Notes: generated by a model not told the origin, from the letters alone. 64,000 nucleotides of DNA from Cryptosporangium arvum DSM 44712 (GCF_000585375.1 NZ_KK073874.1:5982894-6046893), one strand, 5' to 3'; shown: positions 7,585-30,378, counted from the stretch's first letter. Program-made: numbers and translations.

Positions 7585-8477
7585 TCGGACGTGAGATCGG
7601 TGGTCGCGGCGAGCTCCGCGACCACCGACACCACGTTGCGGACCAGCGGCGTCTCGTCCCGCCAGATCACCACGGTCTCGGCCACCTCGCCCACCAGCGG
7701 GACGAACACCACGCCGCTGCCGCGCAGGCTGCGCGAGGACGCCGCCAGCCGGGTCACGCCGACCCCGGCGGCGACGAGCGCCAGCAGGTTCTGCACGCTG
7801 CCGCCCTCGGCCACGACACGCGGCGCGAAGCCGGCCGCGGCGAACTCGGCGTCGTAACGCAGGTGCCACGGCAGCCAGGAATCGCGCGGGGTGAGCACCC
7901 AGGGTTCGTCGTTCAGCTCCCCGAGCGCGACCGAGTCCCGCGCGGCCAGCGGATGGCCCACCGGTAGCACCGCGCACGCCGGCTCGGTGGCGATCACCCG
8001 CGTGCGGAGGTCGTCCACGCACGGCGGGCGCCCGAACCCCACGTCGTACCGACCCGCGCGCAGGCCGGTCACCATCTCCGCGATCGACACCGCGTCGGTC
8101 GTGAGGTCCCACTCGCCGAACCGTGTCCGCAGCGCCCGCACGACCGGGGGCAGCAGCGTGTTGGCCGCCGAGGCGAGGAACGCCAGGTCGACCCGGCCGA
8201 GCTCACCCCGGGCGGCGCGCGCGGCCGTCGCGACGGCCCGTTCGGCGCGCGCGAGCACCGCGCGCGCCTCCGGGAGGAACACCGCGCCGACCGCGGTCAG
8301 CCGGGTGCCCCGGGTGTCCCGGTCGAAGAGGCGGGCCTTCAACCGGCGCTCGAGCACGGCGATCTGCTGCGACAGCGACTGCTGGGCGAGGTTGAGCCGG
8401 GCGGCCGCCGCGGTGAAGCTCGACTCCTCGGCGACGGCCACGAAGTAGCGCAGGTGACGCAGCTCGAGGTCGCTCAC
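7581..8477 (-). CDS. LysR-family transcriptional regulator
   Basis: A 298-residue LysR regulator. The N-terminal winged helix-turn-helix has LRYFVAVAEESSFTAAAARL (residues 7-26) and LSQQIAVLERRL, followed by a periplasmic-binding-protein-like effector domain to the end. The GTG at 8477 (VSDLELRHLRYF) is preferred over an upstream in-frame start because LysR proteins normally begin a few residues before the first helix. It is divergent from the SDR gene with a 71-bp gap, the classic arrangement in which LysR controls both itself and the neighbour. The effector is not deducible. Confidence 0.88.
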   Translation of the reverse strand: MSDLELRHLRYFVAVAEESSFTAAAARLNLAQQSLSQQIAVLERRLKARLFDRDTRGTRLTAVGAVFLPEARAVLARAERAVATAARAARGELGRVDLAFLASAANTLLPPVVRALRTRFGEWDLTTDAVSIAEMVTGLRAGRYDVGFGRPPCVDDLRTRVIATEPACAVLPVGHPLAARDSVALGELNDEPWVLTPRDSWLPWHLRYDAEFAAAGFAPRVVAEGGSVQNLLALVAAGVGVTRLAASSRSLRGSGVVFVPLVGEVAETVVIWRDETPLVRNVVSVVAELAATTDLTSD

Positions 8478-21247: not shown

Positions 21248-21576
21248 GATCTCTCCTTGATGGGGGAACCGAAAAATGAATTCGGGTGCCCTAGGGGTTT
21301 CGCAACACTTCGACGCGTCGTGTTCTCGAGCATTTTCGAGGACGGGAGTAACCATTCCATGCCTCGCCGTAATGGCAAGCCTCTTAAGGTAAAAGAAAGG
21401 TTCGCGTTTGTAGCCGGCGACGCCAGTCCGCTGTGCGGCGCAACGCTTGCGAGTCGACCGGGAAGCAATTCGGGCAAGAAACTCCCACTGGCCCGTTTCG
21501 CCGAGCTGCGTACTAAATGAGGTAGAGTTGAGCCGAACGACATGAGTTGTTCACGCGCTCCGGAACGTGACTCACT

Positions 21577-21604
21577 TGTTCACTCTCCGTCCGCGCCCTA
21601 TCCT
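21577..21604 (+). promoter_or_regulatory. Predicted promoter of the LAL regulator gene
   Basis: TTGTTC (21577-21582), a 16-bp spacer and TATCCT (21599-21604) form a plausible vegetative promoter. The -10 ends only 6 bp before GTG 21611, implying a leaderless transcript. The octamer TTGTTCAC occurs twice, at 21547 and 21577, 30 bp apart, suggesting an operator overlapping the promoter. Confidence 0.4.
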
Positions 21605-21610
21605 GGGTCA

Positions 21611-24463
21611 GTGACGATCTCTCCGGTCCCCGGTTCGTTGATCGGGCGTGACCCGGAGATCGCGAAGTTCGACCGGTGGATCACCGGTTGCCTCCAGGGC
21701 GACGGCCGCGCGGTCCTCATCGACGGCGAGCCCGGGATCGGCAAGTCCACGCTGATGCGAACGGTGTCCATCCAGGCCGCCGAAGCCGGCTTCACCGTCT
21801 ACCGTGGCGCGGGCGACGAACTCGGCCAGGCGCTGCCGCTGCTGCCGTTCCTCGACGCGCTCGAGGTCCGCGAGTCCACGACCGACCCGCGTCGCCGCTC
21901 GGTCCTCCGGCTGTTACGGGGCGACTTCTCGGCCGGCGGCTCGGTCGACGCGGTCACCGCGGCCTCCGAACAGCTGTTCGCTCTGGTCGAGCAGCTGTGT
22001 GAGCAGTCGCCCACGATGGTCGTCATCGACGACCTGCAGTGGGCCGACCCGACGACCGTCGCGCTCTGGGGCCGCCTGGCGAAGGCCGCCCGCCAGCTCC
22101 CCCTGCCGCTTCCGCTGTTCCTGCTCGGGCTCGCCCGGCCCACCCCGCAGGGCGACAGCCTCCGCGCGCTGCGGCGGGCGGTCGAACCGGGTGAGCTCGT
22201 CCGGCTGAGTCCACTGGCCAACGACGACGTGACGGCGCTGCTCACCAGCCTGACCGGCGCCCGGCCCGGTGCGCAGCTCTCCCGCCTCGCCGACGGTGCC
22301 GCCGGCAACCCGCTCTACCTCACCGAGCTCGTCGGCGCGCTCAGCCGCGGTTCCTACCTCACCGAGACCGAGCCGGGCACCGTCGACGTCACCTCCGGGT
22401 CGGCTCCGCGCACGCTCACCGCCGCGATCGCCGACCGGCTCGGGTTCCTGTCCGAGCAGGTCCGCAGCATCCTGCGCGCGGCGGCGCTGCTCGGGGTGCA
22501 GTTCGCGGTCGACGACCTGGCGCTGGTGCTCAAGCAGAGCGTCACCGAACTGCTCCCGTCGCTGGAGGAGTCCCTCTCCGCCGGCGTCCTCGCCGACACG
22601 CCCGAGGGCCTCGGATTCCGGCACCCGCTGATCCGCACCGCGCTCTACGAGGAGCTCCCGGCGTCGGTCCGGTCCGCGCTGCACCGCGACGCCGGCCGGG
22701 CGCTCGCCGCGGCGCACGCACCGGTCGAACGCGTCGCCCGGCAGCTGCTCTCGGCCGACAATCCCAACGGTCCCCGGCTCGGCCCGCTCGAGCCGTGGGT
22801 GCAGGACTGGCTGACCGAGGCCGGCCCGGCGCTCGTCGCGCAGGCGCCGCAGGCGGCCGCCGACTTGCTCCGCCGCGCCACTACCAGCTGGCCGGCCCGC
22901 CCTGCGGACGACTCGCTGTCCACAATGCTGGCCAACGCGCTGTTCCGGCTCGGCAATCCGCTGGACACGGTGGAGGTGGCCGTCTCGGCACTCGATCGAG
23001 TGACCGACCCCGACATCCTCGTCGAACTGCACTGGATCCACGCTCAGGCACAGCTGCAGGTCGGCGACACCCCCACCGCCCTCGAAGCGCTGCAGAAAGC
23101 GCTCGCCAATCCGAACCTCGGCGCGCTGCACCGCGCCCGCCTGCTGATTTCACTCGGACGCGCCCACCGGGTGGCCGGTCAGGTGAAGCTCGCGGAGAAA
23201 GCCGCCGAGCAGGCTCGCGCGCTCGCCATCGAGTCCAACGACCGGTGGGCGCTGGCGTGGGCGCTCCACTTGCTCTCGATCGCGAGCGTCACCGGCGGCG
23301 GCAGCGCGGAGAGCCTCGCGCTGTACGACAACGCCATTGCGGCTACCGGCGACGATCTAGCGCTCGTCGATCTCCGGCTGCTGGTGAAGATCAACCGCGC
23401 GATCTGGCTCGGCGACCTCGACCGGTACCCCGAGGCGCTGGAGGCGCTCCGCGAGGTGCGCGACGAGGCCGAGCGGGTCGGCAGCGCGATCCGGCTGGCC
23501 CAGGCCTACACGGGGCTGTGCGAGCTGTACTTCGAGAACGGCCAGTGGGACGACGCGCTGGCCGACCTGGACGCGGCGCCCGACGACGCGCGGGACCAGG
23601 CCTCGGCCTGCCAGCACCGGGGCATGGTGGCCGCGATCTACCTCCACCGCGGCGACACCGAGGCCGGTCTGCACAACCTCGCACTCTCCGAGACGCACGA
23701 GGAGTTGCTCGGCCTACGCGTCATCGCGGCGCCCGCATTGGCGCGGGCGCTCCGCTCCGAGCAGGCCAACCAGCCCGAGGAAGCGCTCGCGGGTCTGCTC
23801 TCCAACCTCACCGGTGAGGTCGAGGAGCTCGACGAGATGGAGGAGCTCCTCCCGGACGCGATGCGGCTGGCGGTGGAGTGCCACGACACCGAGGCCGCAG
23901 CGCACGTCCTGCGCTACGCCGAGGAAGCAGCCGCCCGCTCCGCGAACCCGCACCGGATCGGCACGGCGCTGTACTGCCGCGGGCTGCGCGACGGCGATCC
24001 GCAACAACTGCTCCAGGCGGCCGAGCAGTACCTCGTCGCCGGACGTCCGCTCTTCCGTGCCAACGCGCTGGAAGCCGCCGCCGCGCGCTTCGCCGAACTC
24101 GGGGAACGGGCCGAGGCCCGCACCGCGTTCAGCCGCGCGCTCGACGGCTACCAGGTCCTCGACGCGAAGTGGGACGCCGCCCGGCTGCAGAACCGGTTCC
24201 GGGAGTACGGCATCCGGCGTGCGCCGCGGGTCAAGCACCGCCAGGCCCGGTCCGGCTGGGACAGCCTGACCCCGACCGAGTCGAAGATCGCCGAGCTCGT
24301 CGTGCAGGGGATGTCGAACCCGCAGATCGCCGCGCAGCTGTTCCTCTCGCCGCGGACGGTGAGCACGCATGTCTCGCACATTCTGAGCAAGCTGGATCTG
24401 CGGTCACGGATTGACCTGGCGCGCGAAGCGGCGCTGCGCAGCGAGAACTCGCCGGACGCCTGA
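21611..24463 (+). CDS. LAL-type (large ATP-binding) LuxR-family regulator
   Basis: About 950 residues: an N-terminal AAA/STAND ATPase with Walker A DGEPGIGKST and Walker B VVIDDLQWAD, a long TPR-like helical middle, and a C-terminal GerE helix-turn-helix (LTPTESKIAELVVQGMSNPQ to the end). LAL proteins are signal-activated transcription factors, often acting on neighbouring or antibiotic-biosynthesis genes. GTG 21611 is favoured over ATG 21542 because the region between them holds a promoter-like sequence and the N-terminus then starts just before GSLIGRDPEI. It is divergent from the small secreted-peptide gene. A strong hairpin follows the stop. The effector is unknown. Confidence 0.9.
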   Translation: MTISPVPGSLIGRDPEIAKFDRWITGCLQGDGRAVLIDGEPGIGKSTLMRTVSIQAAEAGFTVYRGAGDELGQALPLLPFLDALEVRESTTDPRRRSVLRLLRGDFSAGGSVDAVTAASEQLFALVEQLCEQSPTMVVIDDLQWADPTTVALWGRLAKAARQLPLPLPLFLLGLARPTPQGDSLRALRRAVEPGELVRLSPLANDDVTALLTSLTGARPGAQLSRLADGAAGNPLYLTELVGALSRGSYLTETEPGTVDVTSGSAPRTLTAAIADRLGFLSEQVRSILRAAALLGVQFAVDDLALVLKQSVTELLPSLEESLSAGVLADTPEGLGFRHPLIRTALYEELPASVRSALHRDAGRALAAAHAPVERVARQLLSADNPNGPRLGPLEPWVQDWLTEAGPALVAQAPQAAADLLRRATTSWPARPADDSLSTMLANALFRLGNPLDTVEVAVSALDRVTDPDILVELHWIHAQAQLQVGDTPTALEALQKALANPNLGALHRARLLISLGRAHRVAGQVKLAEKAAEQARALAIESNDRWALAWALHLLSIASVTGGGSAESLALYDNAIAATGDDLALVDLRLLVKINRAIWLGDLDRYPEALEALREVRDEAERVGSAIRLAQAYTGLCELYFENGQWDDALADLDAAPDDARDQASACQHRGMVAAIYLHRGDTEAGLHNLALSETHEELLGLRVIAAPALARALRSEQANQPEEALAGLLSNLTGEVEELDEMEELLPDAMRLAVECHDTEAAAHVLRYAEEAAARSANPHRIGTALYCRGLRDGDPQQLLQAAEQYLVAGRPLFRANALEAAAARFAELGERAEARTAFSRALDGYQVLDAKWDAARLQNRFREYGIRRAPRVKHRQARSGWDSLTPTESKIAELVVQGMSNPQIAAQLFLSPRTVSTHVSHILSKLDLRSRIDLAREAALRSENSPDA

Positions 24464-24573: not shown

Positions 24574-26319
24574 TCAGTGGTGTTTCGGGCCGGGCGTGTG
24601 GGGCGGTGTCACCCGGGCCCGGCCGACGACACCGTCGGTGTTCTCGTCGCCCAGCACCGGGATCGAACCGGTGTCGGTGAGACCGACCGGCGCGGGGCCT
24701 GCCACGGCGGGGCCGGCAATGGCAGGTCCGGCCGCGCCGGCCGGGGTCGATGCGGCCAGCGACTGGCCGGGCCGGTCCGAGCTGTAGGGCCCGGCCGGGG
24801 TCGGTGCGGCCTCCCCGCCCGGGGCGGGGAGGCCGGTGGGGGCCGGGCCGAGCGGGAGAGCGACGCCGAACTGCGTGACGCCCTCGTCGGCCCGGCCGTG
24901 CTGCATGCCGTCGCCGGACCGGCCGTGCTGCGTCCCGGGTTCCGGGCCCAGCAGCGGCACCTCGCCGGTGTGGTAGACCGACGGCAGGTCGGTCAGCGAG
25001 ATCCCGTGGTGACGCCCGGCGCGGGCGGTCCACCCGGAGCCGTCGGGCTGCTGGGCGGCGGCACCGTCGAACGTGTTGCCGTACGGGCCGGTCTGTCCCA
25101 GCGCGATCGGACCCAGCGGGTCGATCGCCGCGTACGGGCCGGTCGGGACGTCAGCTCCGCCGATGGGGTCCCCGGGGCCGGAGCGGGCGCTGCCGACGCT
25201 GCCGACGGGGCCGCTGACTGGGCCGGGGGCGCCGCCCGGGGCCGGTGCGCTCTGGCCATAGGCGCCGCTCACCGGCATCGGACCCCACGCTCCGCTCACC
25301 GGCATCGCCGGACCGGCGCCGTAGGCACCGCTGACCGGGGCCGACGGTGATCCGTACGCGCCGCTCACCGGCGCGGCCGGGGTCGGGCCGGGAAAAGGGC
25401 CCCCGTGGTCGTTCCCACCGTTCGCACGGCGCGGGGGGTACGGGCCGTTGGGGCCCGTCGCCGCACCGGGCTGCGGCGACGGGCGGTCGTAGCCGAGGGC
25501 CGGCAGCCGGCCACCGGGGTACCCCAGCTGGTCCGAACCCGCCCGGGGCGGCTGCGGCGTCGGCATCATCGGCAGCCGCGGCGCGGGCCAGGTGGGGCCG
25601 GGACGCAGCTGCGGGGGGTGCGGCCCGGGCAGGAGCCGCTCCTGACCGGCCACCATCCGTGGCTTCAGCGCCGGGGCGCCCACCGGAGCCGGAGCACCCA
25701 GCGCCCGGGCCAGATGATCTCCGTTCACCCGCTCGCTCCGCACCCGCTCGCTGCGGAGCTTCTCGCTAGCGACCTCCAGTGCCACGATCGTGGCCTCCTT
25801 CCGACGTCGTTTCTGTCCTCGCCGGGTCCATCCCGGAGCGAAGTACCACCAGGTCAGGAACCACAGCAGGGTGCCACCGGTGATGGGGAGCGCGAACGAG
25901 GTGCCCATGACGACGTCGAGGATCAGCAGCAGGACGCCGTTGACCGCGAGCATCATCAACGTGACACCCCAGAACGCGAACCGGCTCGACGCCTTCACCA
26001 GCTGCGCCTCGAGCCGGCGCCGGAAGACCAGCCGGTGGAACGGGGCCGGGGCGATCAGCAGGCAGGTGGCGCCCGCGACGAGCACCAGGCTCACCACGTA
26101 GACCATCCGCTGGAAGCGGGTCGTCTCGTCGAACCCGCTCGTGAACGCCAGCGTGAGCAGGAACACGAGCAGGAGCTGCGTGCCGATCTGGGCGGCGCGG
26201 GTCTCCTGCAGGATCTCCAGGTAGTTCCGGTGCCACCGCTGGGTCGGGGTTTCCTGCGTCCGGGGGTCCCGTCTTTCGTTCCGGTCCGACGAGCGGCCCG
26301 TGGTCAGTTCCGCAGACAT
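24574..26319 (-). CDS. DUF6328-type membrane protein with long Pro/Gly-rich repeat tail
   Basis: A 581-residue protein. Residues 30-170 resemble DUF6328: RWHRNYLEILQETRAAQIGT, then four hydrophobic helices (LLLVFLLTLAFTSGF, YVVSLVLVAGATCLLIAPAP, GVTLMMLAVNGVLLLILDVV, PITGGTLLWFLTWWYF). A basic segment GQKRRRKEATI leads into about 380 residues of low-complexity Pro/Gly/Ala tail with recurring PVSGAYG/PVSGAWG and TGPY units, far longer than the usual DUF6328 protein. ATG 26319 follows GGAAGGGCGGGG. A 30-nt element 53 bp upstream is repeated before the SMR-like operon, suggesting co-regulation. Function unknown. Confidence 0.75.
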   Translation of the reverse strand: MSAELTTGRSSDRNERRDPRTQETPTQRWHRNYLEILQETRAAQIGTQLLLVFLLTLAFTSGFDETTRFQRMVYVVSLVLVAGATCLLIAPAPFHRLVFRRRLEAQLVKASSRFAFWGVTLMMLAVNGVLLLILDVVMGTSFALPITGGTLLWFLTWWYFAPGWTRRGQKRRRKEATIVALEVASEKLRSERVRSERVNGDHLARALGAPAPVGAPALKPRMVAGQERLLPGPHPPQLRPGPTWPAPRLPMMPTPQPPRAGSDQLGYPGGRLPALGYDRPSPQPGAATGPNGPYPPRRANGGNDHGGPFPGPTPAAPVSGAYGSPSAPVSGAYGAGPAMPVSGAWGPMPVSGAYGQSAPAPGGAPGPVSGPVGSVGSARSGPGDPIGGADVPTGPYAAIDPLGPIALGQTGPYGNTFDGAAAQQPDGSGWTARAGRHHGISLTDLPSVYHTGEVPLLGPEPGTQHGRSGDGMQHGRADEGVTQFGVALPLGPAPTGLPAPGGEAAPTPAGPYSSDRPGQSLAASTPAGAAGPAIAGPAVAGPAPVGLTDTGSIPVLGDENTDGVVGRARVTPPHTPGPKHH

Positions 26320-26371: not shown

Positions 26372-26401
26372 AGACATCGGTCGACTGACGTAGCCGCGAA
26401 G
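26372..26401 (-). promoter_or_regulatory. Shared 30-nt upstream element, copy 1
   Basis: This stretch is identical at 29 of 30 positions to 29717-29746; on the plus strand it contains GACATCGGTCGACTGACGTA. Both copies precede minus-strand genes by 50-80 bp, which suggests a common activator site or promoter. A secondary GTACGT hexamer lies 59 bp away here and 49 bp away in copy 2, a difference of one helical turn. Confidence 0.6.
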
Positions 26402-26532: not shown

Positions 26533-27513
26533 TCACACCGCCGCTTCGAGCCGGCGCTGCCCGTACCCGGTGGACACGGCGGTCGCGCCGGACGGGAACG
26601 GCGCGTCGATCGGCCGGTACATCGGCCGCGGGCCGGGTTTGCGCCGCGGGAAATACCGGTGGTAGATCTCCAGCCGGGCCGAGGCGGTCGGCGGCACCAT
26701 GCCGGCCCGCCCGAACGAGTGCAGGATCGCCTGGTGGAGAACCCGAGCGGCTTCCTGGAGCGCGAAACCCTCGGCGCGGGCGCCCTCCGGCGCCAGACAG
26801 CGGGCGATCATCGGCAGCGCGTTGTAGCGGTTCTGGTCGGCGAGCTCCCGGGCCGCGATCTCGAACGCGACGTAGAAGCCGGAGAACGCGACCGGGTAGG
26901 CGAGCACGTCGGTGAAGTGCAGCCGGTGGCGTGCCAGCGCGGGCACCGCGTACCAGCGCAGGCCGAGCTGGGCGAACCAGGCGTAGCCGGGGTGCTCCAG
27001 GTTGACCTCGAGCACGCGCTCGGGCGACAGCTCGTAGGCGATCACCGGCCCGCCGTGCACGCGCAGCAGCAACGGCAACACGTCGAACGGACCGGGCAGG
27101 AGCCGGCCGCCGTCCACCGGGCGCCCGCCCGGCCAGCCGGCCCGCAGCGCGAGCGTGGTCAGCTCGAGGTGGCGTGGATCGCCCAGGATCGATCCGTCCG
27201 CCTGCTGGTAGCCGGCATAGCCGACGAGCTGCTCGTTGAGGATCTCCACCGCCGGGTCGAGCACGGTGGCCACCGAGCGGATCTTCCCGTCCCGGGTGGC
27301 GACCCGGAGGTGTTCGGCCAGCCCGGAGGCGACCGCGTCCGGGTCGGTGACGCCACGCAGATCACGGACCTGCAGGCCGCGCCAGCGCAGGCGGCCGATC
27401 CCCTTGTCGGCGTTCGCCCAGGCAACCCTGGCCGCCCAGGCGAGTTGCTCGGTAGTCGGAATGGTCGGACCGGTGAGCTGCCCCCGGTCGGCCGCGGCGA
27501 GGTCGATTCGCAC
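26533..27513 (-). CDS. Nitric-oxide-synthase-oxygenase-like protein lacking the haem cysteine
   Basis: A 326-residue protein that follows the bacterial NOS oxygenase pattern. Matching blocks are GIGRLRWRGLQVRDLR (38-53), EHLRVATRDGKIR (67-79), LNEQLVGYAGYQQADGSILG (92-111), PFDVLPLLL (142-150), GLRWYAVPAL (184-193), SGFYVAFEIAARELADQNRY (211-230, the substrate-Glu helix; Glu218) and LHQAILHSFGRAG (259-271). In NOS the haem thiolate comes from Cys in RCIGR; here the sequence is KGIGR with Gly38 at that place, and no cysteine is nearby. The C-terminal pterin/dimer segment (WxWLIPP, ATHIFHR in known enzymes) is absent or replaced. Normal P450-like chemistry is therefore unlikely. GTG 27513 has GGAGGTG upstream. 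Last gene of a three-gene operon. Confidence 0.75.
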   Translation of the reverse strand: MRIDLAAADRGQLTGPTIPTTEQLAWAARVAWANADKGIGRLRWRGLQVRDLRGVTDPDAVASGLAEHLRVATRDGKIRSVATVLDPAVEILNEQLVGYAGYQQADGSILGDPRHLELTTLALRAGWPGGRPVDGGRLLPGPFDVLPLLLRVHGGPVIAYELSPERVLEVNLEHPGYAWFAQLGLRWYAVPALARHRLHFTDVLAYPVAFSGFYVAFEIAARELADQNRYNALPMIARCLAPEGARAEGFALQEAARVLHQAILHSFGRAGMVPPTASARLEIYHRYFPRRKPGPRPMYRPIDAPFPSGATAVSTGYGQRRLEAAV

Positions 27514-27538
27514 TTGGCACCTCCGTCGGTGGTCGGAC

Positions 27539-29074
27539 TCAGTCGCGCAGGACGCAGACCGTGGCGAGCGTGGGGTCGGCCGAGCCGTGGATGTGCATTC
27601 CGCTCGCGACCGCGCGGGTCAGCGCGGCGACGGCGTCGCCGTCGAGGCACTCACCGGGCATGACCGCGGGGACGCCCGGCGGGTACGGCGTGATGGGTTC
27701 GGCGCTGGTGCGCCCGACGGCCCGCTCCAGCGGGACGGTCTCGGTCGCGGCGAAGTGGGCCTCGCGCGGGGTGCAGACCTGGGTGCGCGGCGCCAGCAGC
27801 GCCTCGACCAGCCGGCCGTCCCAAGCCGGGCGCAGCAGCCGGCGCGGACGGCAAGACAGCGTCCGCAGCGCGGTGACCAGCGCGTCCACGACGTCCGGCG
27901 AGGTGCACGTGGTGATCGCGACGAACAGGTTGCTCTCGTCGGCGCCCTCCACGGCCACCGCCGGGTGCAGCAGCCCGCTGGTGCCAAGGCCGGGGCCGGG
28001 CGTCCGGAGCAGCCTCTCGATCTCGAGACCGGTGAGGCCCAGCCCGGCGACGCTGATGACCAGGCGCAGCGGGTCGAACCGCTCGGCCGGGACGCCGAGG
28101 TCCTCGGCTTCGGCCACCCGGACACCGGGGATCGCGGCCAGCCGCCGGCGGGCGTTCGCGACCAGTTCCAGGGTCCGGTCGAGCAGGGTGCGGCCGCGGC
28201 TGACCATCGTCCGGCGGGCGTCGTCGATGCTCGCGAGCACCGGCAGCAGCGGGCTGGTGGTCTGGGTCATCTGGACCACGCGGCTGATCCGGTCGGCCTC
28301 GAACCGGTCGCCCCTGGTGAAGATGATCGCGGCTCCGGACGGCGCGGCGAGCATCTTGTGCGCGGACGTGACCGACACGTCGGCGCCGACCGAGATCGCG
28401 TGCGCCGGCAGGTCGGGGTGGAACGGCAGGTGCGCGCCCCAGGCCTCGTCGACCATCAGCGGGGTGCCGTGGCGGTGGGCCACGTCGGCGAGCGCGCGGA
28501 CGTCGGAGCACGCGCCGGCGTACCCCGGGCTGACCATGCTCACCAGCCCGGCCCGGTGGCCCTGGGCGGACAGCCCGGTCAGCGTCTCGTCGAGCGCGGC
28601 CGGATCGATGCCGAGGCTGATGCCGAAGCCGCCCTCGTCGAGGCGCGGGGTGACCCAGTGCGGCGTCGCGCCGGAGAGGACCAGGCCGGCCAGCGTGGAC
28701 GTGTGGCTGTCGCGGGCGACGACGACGTGCTGGCTCGGCTGGGCCAGATGGACCGCCCGGTTGCCTCCGGACGAGCCGTCGAGCAGGAACAACGCGGTGT
28801 CGGCGCCCCAGGCGGCCGCGGCGAGCGCCTCGGCCTCGCGGCGGGCGTTCGTCGCGTCCGCGGGGGTCAGCCAGACGTCGGAGGCCAGGAACGTGTTCCC
28901 CAGCAGGGCGCGCAGGCCGGTGCCGACCGTGCGTCCGCCGGCGTGGCCGGGGACGTGCAGCGCGCCGGTCTCCAGGCCTCGGTAGTGGAGGATCGCGTCG
29001 ACCAGCGGGGCCGCGCTGTGGGCCGCGTCGAAGAGGACGGGCCGATCTCCGGAGGGCAGGGCAACGGCGGTCAT
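27539..29074 (-). CDS. Orn/Lys/Arg-decarboxylase-family PLP enzyme
   Basis: A 511-residue fold-type I PLP enzyme of the short (SpeA/YaaO-like) Orn/Lys/Arg decarboxylase family. GALHVPGHAGG (38-47) is the family N-terminal motif. DGSSGGNRA binds phosphate, His124 in RDSHTS should stack on PLP, Asp209 in VDEAWGAH pairs with the pyridine nitrogen, and Lys240 in TSAHKML is the Schiff-base lysine. A C-terminal domain with PYPPGVPAVMPGE is also typical. The activity could be arginine, lysine or ornithine decarboxylation, or a related reaction. Its ATG overlaps the stop of the SMR-like gene (ATGA), and the NOS-like gene follows after 25 bp, so all three are one operon. Confidence 0.88.
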   Translation of the reverse strand: MTAVALPSGDRPVLFDAAHSAAPLVDAILHYRGLETGALHVPGHAGGRTVGTGLRALLGNTFLASDVWLTPADATNARREAEALAAAAWGADTALFLLDGSSGGNRAVHLAQPSQHVVVARDSHTSTLAGLVLSGATPHWVTPRLDEGGFGISLGIDPAALDETLTGLSAQGHRAGLVSMVSPGYAGACSDVRALADVAHRHGTPLMVDEAWGAHLPFHPDLPAHAISVGADVSVTSAHKMLAAPSGAAIIFTRGDRFEADRISRVVQMTQTTSPLLPVLASIDDARRTMVSRGRTLLDRTLELVANARRRLAAIPGVRVAEAEDLGVPAERFDPLRLVISVAGLGLTGLEIERLLRTPGPGLGTSGLLHPAVAVEGADESNLFVAITTCTSPDVVDALVTALRTLSCRPRRLLRPAWDGRLVEALLAPRTQVCTPREAHFAATETVPLERAVGRTSAEPITPYPPGVPAVMPGECLDGDAVAALTRAVASGMHIHGSADPTLATVCVLRD

Positions 29075-29637
29075 CGGTTCGCCGTCCTTTCACCGATGAC
29101 CGCCGTGCCGCCGGGCGCGCCGGACGGGCCGGCGCTCGGGGTGGGGGCGATCGAGACGGATTTGGTGGGCTTTCCGTTGGGCGCGAAGATCATGTAGGCC
29201 ATCAGGGCGAAGATCGCGGCCATCGCGAACCACTTCCCGGTGGGCACCACGACGCCGTTCGCGACTTTGTCCATGATCAGGACCCCGACCTGGACGCCGA
29301 CGATCCAGCCGAGCGTCACGGTGCCGAGCTCGGCCCAGTGGAGGCTCGCGGCGTAGACGGCGAACACTCCCAGGAAGGCGATCGCGCCGGCCGACCACCA
29401 GAGCTGGTGCCCGTCGGCCATGTAGCGGATCGCGCAGTAGCTGCCGATCAGGTCCAGGCCGGTCAGCGCGACCATCGCGACGAGCCCCATCGGGGAGAAC
29501 TCGATGAAGCTCTTGCCGGCCACGATCGGTTCGGCCAGCACGGACGCCACGGTCGGCTCGGTCAAAGCCGCGGGGAGACGGAAGACGTCAACGGCGGCTG
29601 GTGCCGACGCGGCGGTCAAAGTCGAATACATGGCCAT
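29071..29637 (-). CDS. Small four-helix membrane protein, SMR/EmrE-like
   Basis: A 188-residue protein with a soluble N-terminus of about 48 residues, four transmembrane helices (51-155) and a Pro/Ser-rich tail. The membrane part can be aligned by eye with small multidrug resistance (SMR) transporters. LDLIGSYCAIRYMADGHQLW corresponds to the EmrE segment around Glu14 with Asp62 replacing the Glu, and LGTVTLGWIVG puts Trp111 at the EmrE Trp63 position. SMR proteins are proton-coupled exporters of cations, including guanidinium (Gdx). The 188-residue length exceeds the usual 105-110. First gene of the operon with the decarboxylase-like and NOS-like genes; the 30-nt element lies 80 bp upstream. 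Identity is moderate and needs profile searching. Confidence 0.55.
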   Translation of the reverse strand: MAMYSTLTAASAPAAVDVFRLPAALTEPTVASVLAEPIVAGKSFIEFSPMGLVAMVALTGLDLIGSYCAIRYMADGHQLWWSAGAIAFLGVFAVYAASLHWAELGTVTLGWIVGVQVGVLIMDKVANGVVVPTGKWFAMAAIFALMAYMIFAPNGKPTKSVSIAPTPSAGPSGAPGGTAVIGERTANR

Positions 29638-29716: not shown

Positions 29717-29746
29717 AGACATCGGTCGACTGACGTAGACGCGAAG
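29717..29746 (-). promoter_or_regulatory. Shared 30-nt upstream element, copy 2
   Basis: Identical at 29 of 30 bases to 26372-26401, with an inner GTCGAC palindrome. It sits about 80 bp upstream of the SMR-like gene start in the otherwise empty interval 29638-29922. Its presence before both minus-strand units implies a shared regulator. Confidence 0.6.
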
Positions 29747-29922: not shown

Positions 29923-30378
29923 ATGTCCACCACGCCCCCACCGACGGCCGTCCGGTCGGTCGCGATCGCGCTGATCGTCGTCGGCGCGCTCGACCTGGTG
30001 TTCGCCGTCCTCGCGTGTTGCGGCCGGGTCGCGCGGCTCGGTCAGAGCGGCGACACCAACTTCACGTCCGACGCCGAGGCCGCCGGGTTCCTCACCTACA
30101 CGCTGCTGGCCGTGGCCTCGCTGCCGATCGGCGCCCTGGTCCTGACCGCGGGTGTGCTGCTGCTGCGGGGCCGGTCCCGGACGCTCGGCCAGGCCGGCGC
30201 GATCGCCGCGATGGTGCCGGTGTCCTGCTGCTTCCCGGTCGGCATCCCGGTCGGTATCTGGGCGCTGACGGTGCTCAAACGCGACGACGTCCGGGCGATG
30301 CTCGACCACCCCGGCGGCCCTCCCCCGGGCCCCGGCGGCTACCCGCCGCCCGGGGGTTACCCGCCGCCCGGGTACTGA
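29923..30378 (+). CDS. Small membrane protein with Pro/Gly/Tyr-rich tail
   Basis: A 151-residue hypothetical protein. A hydrophobic helix (SVAIALIVVGALDLVFAVLA) is followed by a loop and two or three more helices (LLAVASLPIGALVLTAGVLL, AAMVPVSCCFPVGIPVGIWA), then a cytoplasmic tail of PPGPGGYPPPGGYPPPGY. Such tails are frequent on actinobacterial DUF4190-like membrane proteins. It is divergent from the SMR-like operon and convergent with the MCP gene. Function unknown. Confidence 0.7.
   Translation: MSTTPPPTAVRSVAIALIVVGALDLVFAVLACCGRVARLGQSGDTNFTSDAEAAGFLTYTLLAVASLPIGALVLTAGVLLLRGRSRTLGQAGAIAAMVPVSCCFPVGIPVGIWALTVLKRDDVRAMLDHPGGPPPGPGGYPPPGGYPPPGY

Follow-up and report, generated by a model that had tools for sequence, protein, structure and literature searches.

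What use would an operon have for an NOS-family protein that has lost the cysteine by which an NOS holds its haem? The question is raised by three minus-strand genes in a window of 64,000 nucleotides from Cryptosporangium arvum DSM 44712, whose genome is a single contig of 9.2 Mb. These genes encode a four-TM membrane protein, an Orn/Lys/Arg-type PLP decarboxylase and a protein of the NOS family (Table 1). The genes of the membrane protein and the decarboxylase share a 4-bp overlap, creating the arrangement ATGA, and the NOS-like gene starts at a GTG codon at position 27513, which is 25 nucleotides past the decarboxylase stop and is preceded by a GGAGG Shine-Dalgarno sequence. The ORFs, the overlap and the short gap bear out the coupling of three minus-strand genes that an earlier note on this DNA had described. 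A further gene, for a small membrane protein that matches no Pfam family, is divergent from the operon (positions 29923-30378 of the window) and is found at the same place in all four genomes of the genus, which is one of soil-type actinomycetes.

Table 1. Genes and promoter elements of the locus; positions are counted from the first nucleotide of the window
Feature	Position	Strand	Remarks
Four-TM membrane protein gene, 188 aa	29071..29637	-	ORF; first in operon
Orn/Lys/Arg-type PLP decarboxylase gene, 511 aa	27539..29074	-	PF01276 and PF03711
NOS-family protein gene, 326 aa	26533..27513	-	PF02898; haem Cys is Gly38
DUF6328 membrane protein gene, 581 aa	24574..26319, likely ATG at 26319	-	PF19853, 149.7 bits from corrected start
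Element copy 1, CTACGTCAGTCGACCGATGTC	29718..29738	-	~80 nt upstream of trio operon
Element copy 2, CTACGTCAGTCGACCGATGTC	26373..26393	-	~55 nt upstream of DUF6328 ATG
LAL-type regulator gene	21542..24463	+	PF13191, TPR PF13424, PF00196; convergent with DUF6328

Sequence and predicted structure leave no doubt that the third protein of the operon is a true member of the NOS family. Residues 19-271 match the Pfam NO_synthase family (233.6 bits, E 4e-69), the protein matches 81 NOS sequences of the PDB (E 1e-49), and an AlphaFold2 model with a pLDDT of 76 aligns with solved NOS haem domains, including that of eNOS, at a Z of 28 over ~290 residues. The NOS fold that had been proposed is thus upheld by Pfam, by PDB sequences and by comparison of the predicted fold. 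The motif W-R-N-x-x-R-C-x-G-R, in contrast, has become W-A-N-A-D-K/R-G-I-G-R, with Gly at the position of the haem-ligand Cys in four of four genus orthologues, whereas Cys is kept in all other aligned members of the family (~130 sequences, of which 112 are canonical). The loss of the haem-binding Cys, as suggested by the earlier note, is therefore real. In addition, a pterin/dimer segment of ~33 residues with DHH...ADWxW has been deleted, such that both Trp columns are gone, and VPP and HRY, just downstream of the deleted segment, are retained. All told, 52 of the 88 near-invariant NOS columns are retained in all four orthologues, and 36 are changed.

Most of the residues expected in the arginine pocket are nonetheless among those kept, namely Gln95, Tyr188, Tyr214, Glu218 and Asp226, whose roles we take to be those assigned from established NOS structures. 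Two positions in the pocket have been altered, with Gly or Ser in place of the Arg98-equivalent and Phe in place of the active-site Trp, and these changes could reflect a different ligand. Because the haem Cys and the pterin site are both absent, synthesis of NO by this protein is unlikely, as judged from its sequence.

Other departures from the canonical motif are found elsewhere in the family. In family f14, C-terminally shortened NOS paralogues form a separate clade, and lie beside genes for a trmB-like methyltransferase and an ABC transporter. In these proteins W-R-N-x-x-R-C-I-G-R is replaced by L-R-D/E-S-G-W-C, with the Cys kept, and some of them (L046, L049 and L051) are also without the substrate Glu. 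Kinship of the NOS-like protein with these shorter paralogues was considered and rejected, since they keep the Cys and belong to a separate clade; the losses in the two groups are therefore independent. Another NOS gene, in G033 (C23:80628-81694), is split by a frameshift, in a genome that is 74% complete, and the split may be an assembly error.

In the case of the second gene, the earlier reading of a PLP enzyme of the amino acid decarboxylase family was confirmed by PF01276 (147 bits, E 8e-43), by PF03711 (40 bits) and by the active-site residues, with AdiA, LdcC and LdcI as relatives in the PDB. The enzyme is intact: all of the 71 columns that are near-invariant among 35 actinobacterial homologues are kept, including K240 (PLP), H124 and D209, and it is predicted from these residues to be active. 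It shares all 71 positions and a C-terminal PYPPGVP motif with the short actinobacterial Orn/Lys/Arg decarboxylases, but differs from them in its identity of 34-41% to other actinobacterial members and in its operon with an NOS-like gene. In the search for decarboxylases, 4 of 38 candidates were scored, and we make no claim that the enzyme of the trio is unique in the genome. Since the gene content further includes members of the ureohydrolase family and one of the agmatine-deiminase family, use of agmatine by the organism is possible.

The membrane protein had been taken for an SMR-like cation exporter, and here the earlier note fared less well, as only the four-TM topology could be recovered. 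Four TM segments are predicted by hydropathy and by a low-confidence model, and Asp62 in TM1, which is kept across the four-TM family, can be likened to the TM1 Glu of SMR proteins by topology only. The protein has no match to a Pfam or PDB profile, and none to the SMR family of Pfam (PF00893) at E<=10. When aligned by hhalign with 20 SMR proteins, taken from these genomes and related ones, it gave E-values of 0.2-0.4, which do not improve on those of shuffled controls, whereas in the identical test SMR subgroups recognised each other with E-values from 5e-5 to 3e-18. With the controls working, Pfam, PDB profiles and hhalign speak against an SMR identity, and SMR membership is not supported by the sequence, with the qualification that the query profile was thin (Neff 1.7) and leaves room for distant homology. 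The single-sequence AlphaFold model (pLDDT 49) is too poor to be of use, and its Foldseek matches are meaningless. Three true SMR genes are found elsewhere in the same genome. Orthologues of the four-TM protein are present in four of four genus genomes, with paralogues elsewhere in two, and a small number of genomes from another family hold relatives. One solo paralogue, ~57% identical, is located beside an aldo/keto reductase gene (7899-8351 of the locus at 4.379 Mb of G000).

The linkage of the three neighbours extends to other genomes, with the trio adjacent in four of four genomes of the genus and together in none of the others sampled. This adjacency is modest evidence, however, because the LAL and DUF6328 flanks are likewise adjacent to the trio in all four genomes, and overall synteny in the genus is high. 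The trio was not found in the sampled genomes of the order and the phylum, a statement that covers the part of the candidates scored in first-look filtering, and no orthologue of the NOS-like gene was found among the candidates scored in 396 genomes of the phylum. An alignment-based query matched 80 canonical NOS, and a DNA-pattern scan with the single NOS protein matched none. The sole other genome of the family carries a canonical NOS, and the homologues of the decarboxylase outside the genus sit in other gene contexts.

How the operon might be controlled is suggested by the 21-bp element CTACGTCAGTCGACCGATGTC, which occurs twice, with zero occurrences expected by shuffling. At <=3 mismatches there are exactly two copies per genome in four of four genus genomes, always at the same two sites, and control matches number 0. 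The element is a 14/18 palindrome and has been preserved in each of the eight promoter regions. Since a longer reading frame of DUF6328 would enclose the element, the ATG at 26319 is the likely start of this gene. Among 393 genomes outside the genus, 13 matches at <=2 mismatches were found, one of which is directly upstream of DUF6328 (family f14, G191). There, the element matches at 18/19 positions, DUF6328 is convergent with a full-length homologue of the LAL protein that is 48-49% identical (C1:138000-153000), and the trio is absent from this place. By our own estimate, the chance of this coincidence of element, DUF6328 and LAL gene is ~0.0007. The element was not found at four plasmid-borne DUF6328 genes that have no LAL gene among their annotated neighbours. 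The neighbouring LAL protein is thus a candidate regulator that probably reads the element, an assignment for which the comparison outside the genus is one genome. No paper on DUF6328 was found in the literature searched. DUF6328 as a second transcription unit, the dedicated element that it shares with the trio, and the LAL regulator are all new relative to the earlier note.

We tentatively propose that the locus is a small, dedicated regulon of the stress type that is controlled by the LAL protein and forms an amine, and in which a haem-free protein of NOS fold serves as a decarboxylase partner that binds an arginine-like ligand. Upon a stress-type signal, the LAL protein would switch on the trio operon and DUF6328 via the private operator, and the decarboxylase would form an amine from one of the basic amino acids arginine, ornithine and lysine. 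The NOS-fold protein, no longer a maker of NO, would bind arginine or a related ligand without a thiolate-ligated haem, and may partner the decarboxylase as a ligand sensor or as a substrate-holding subunit, a link drawn from the operon. The membrane proteins would have their role in the envelope, where they may move the amine. That the NOS fold has itself been turned into a haem-free partner or regulator of an amino acid decarboxylase, binding arginine or an amine within a LAL-controlled regulon, is possible but doubtful.

It may instead be that the genes have shared regulation and no shared pathway, with the NOS-fold protein serving as a structural or binding component that has nothing to do with arginine. 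We regard this as somewhat unlikely. Genes for universal stress protein, Hsp20, STAS and sigma-B-type (SigB/F family) proteins are common beside DUF6328, as would be expected of a stress regulon, and the 36 changed columns, together with a stem branch of 2.37 changes per column for the NOS-like group, versus a typical 0.2-0.7 elsewhere in the tree, also argue for such a role. The five residues of the arginine pocket argue against it, albeit weakly, given the high identity within the genus. The long stem, when combined with present purifying selection (dN/dS of 0.12-0.19 among the genus orthologues of the NOS-like gene, and similar for the decarboxylase), fits functional change rather than decay. 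A decaying relic that is retained in the operon would explain why the catalytic ligand and the cofactor segment are both gone, but it is barely credible for a gene that is open in four of four genomes, is 86-89% identical among them, and has a strong Shine-Dalgarno sequence and a conserved promoter element in addition to this selection; pseudogene status is ruled out by the dN/dS values.

Two further readings would give the operon a more familiar chemistry. The NOS-like protein could be a re-purposed haem oxygenase or peroxygenase, with haem bound via another or an exogenous ligand, whose substrate is an amine or amino acid that the decarboxylase produces or consumes. The coupling of the two genes is consistent with this, as are the features of the haem and substrate pocket that are kept, namely Trp32 (the haem-stacking Trp), I-G-R, Phe210 and Gly212, along with Tyr214 and Glu218. 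However, no Cys, Met or Tyr is found within 16 residues of Gly38 in any of the four orthologues, and the sole nearby His (position +10) is not conserved among them. The pterin/dimer segment is deleted, and no reductase, ferredoxin or transferase genes are present in the conserved neighbourhood of the trio, making this reading quite unlikely. Alternatively, the decarboxylase would make an amine and an SMR-type, Gdx-like exporter would remove the product, in line with the four TM segments, the acidic residue in TM1 and a product that would be a cation. We consider export of guanidine or amine in this manner very unlikely, given the lack of an SMR signal in searches that recovered the controls, the genuine SMR genes elsewhere in the genome, and a search for guanidine riboswitches that found none, with three Rfam matches far below the gathering scores. 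Of the arginine or guanidino-compound pathway with export that the earlier note had envisaged, the retention of most of the arginine pocket keeps the arginine or guanidino part possible, and guanidinium export finds no backing in the SMR tests or the riboswitch search.

NOS is normally defined by a thiolate-ligated haem and a pterin. If the lineage described here has given up both, while strong purifying selection maintains its fold and substrate pocket, it would uncouple the binding of substrate from the chemistry of oxygen in this fold and hint at a second career for it. The locus is also a compact test system, made up of one operon, one candidate regulator and one private operator with two copies in each genome. 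In the papers searched, which lie outside the subscription literature, neither a Cys-less NOS nor the same gene set is reported, in keeping with the earlier remark that no described system with this three-gene combination is known, and none of them describes a use of the NOS fold that is not catalytic.

Known systems provide a likeness for each component. The SMR proteins EmrE and Gdx share four TM helices and an acidic residue in TM1 with the membrane protein, which, unlike them, has long N- and C-terminal tails, shows no detectable sequence relation, and forms a small family of its own, paralogues of which occur in the genus. The neighbouring regulator has the AAA_16 ATPase, TPR and C-terminal LuxR HTH of the LAL (large ATP-binding LuxR, MalT-like) regulators; it differs in its proposed target element, which each genome has at a single locus. 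Among actinobacterial NOS homologues that lie beside metabolic genes, as does that of the trio, are those of biosynthetic clusters (TxtD, RufN, PtnF and Laj3), which are NO-making haem enzymes found beside NRPS/PKS and P450 genes, with Laj3 assayed as a canonical NOS (PMC10831120). The NOS-like protein of the trio, in contrast, has neither such partners nor a haem ligand. The bacterial NOS that have been characterised are likewise haem enzymes that form NO. The oxygenase-only enzymes bsNOS and gsNOS (PF02898) have the same fold, 40-50% identity over ~260 residues, the Glu, Tyr, Asp and Gln of the arginine pocket, and VPP and HRY on the C-terminal side in common with the NOS-like protein. The latter differs from both in having Gly for the haem Cys, Ala-Asn for the preceding Arg-Asn, a deletion of DHH...ADWxW, Gly or Ser for the Arg98-equivalent, and Phe for the active-site Trp.
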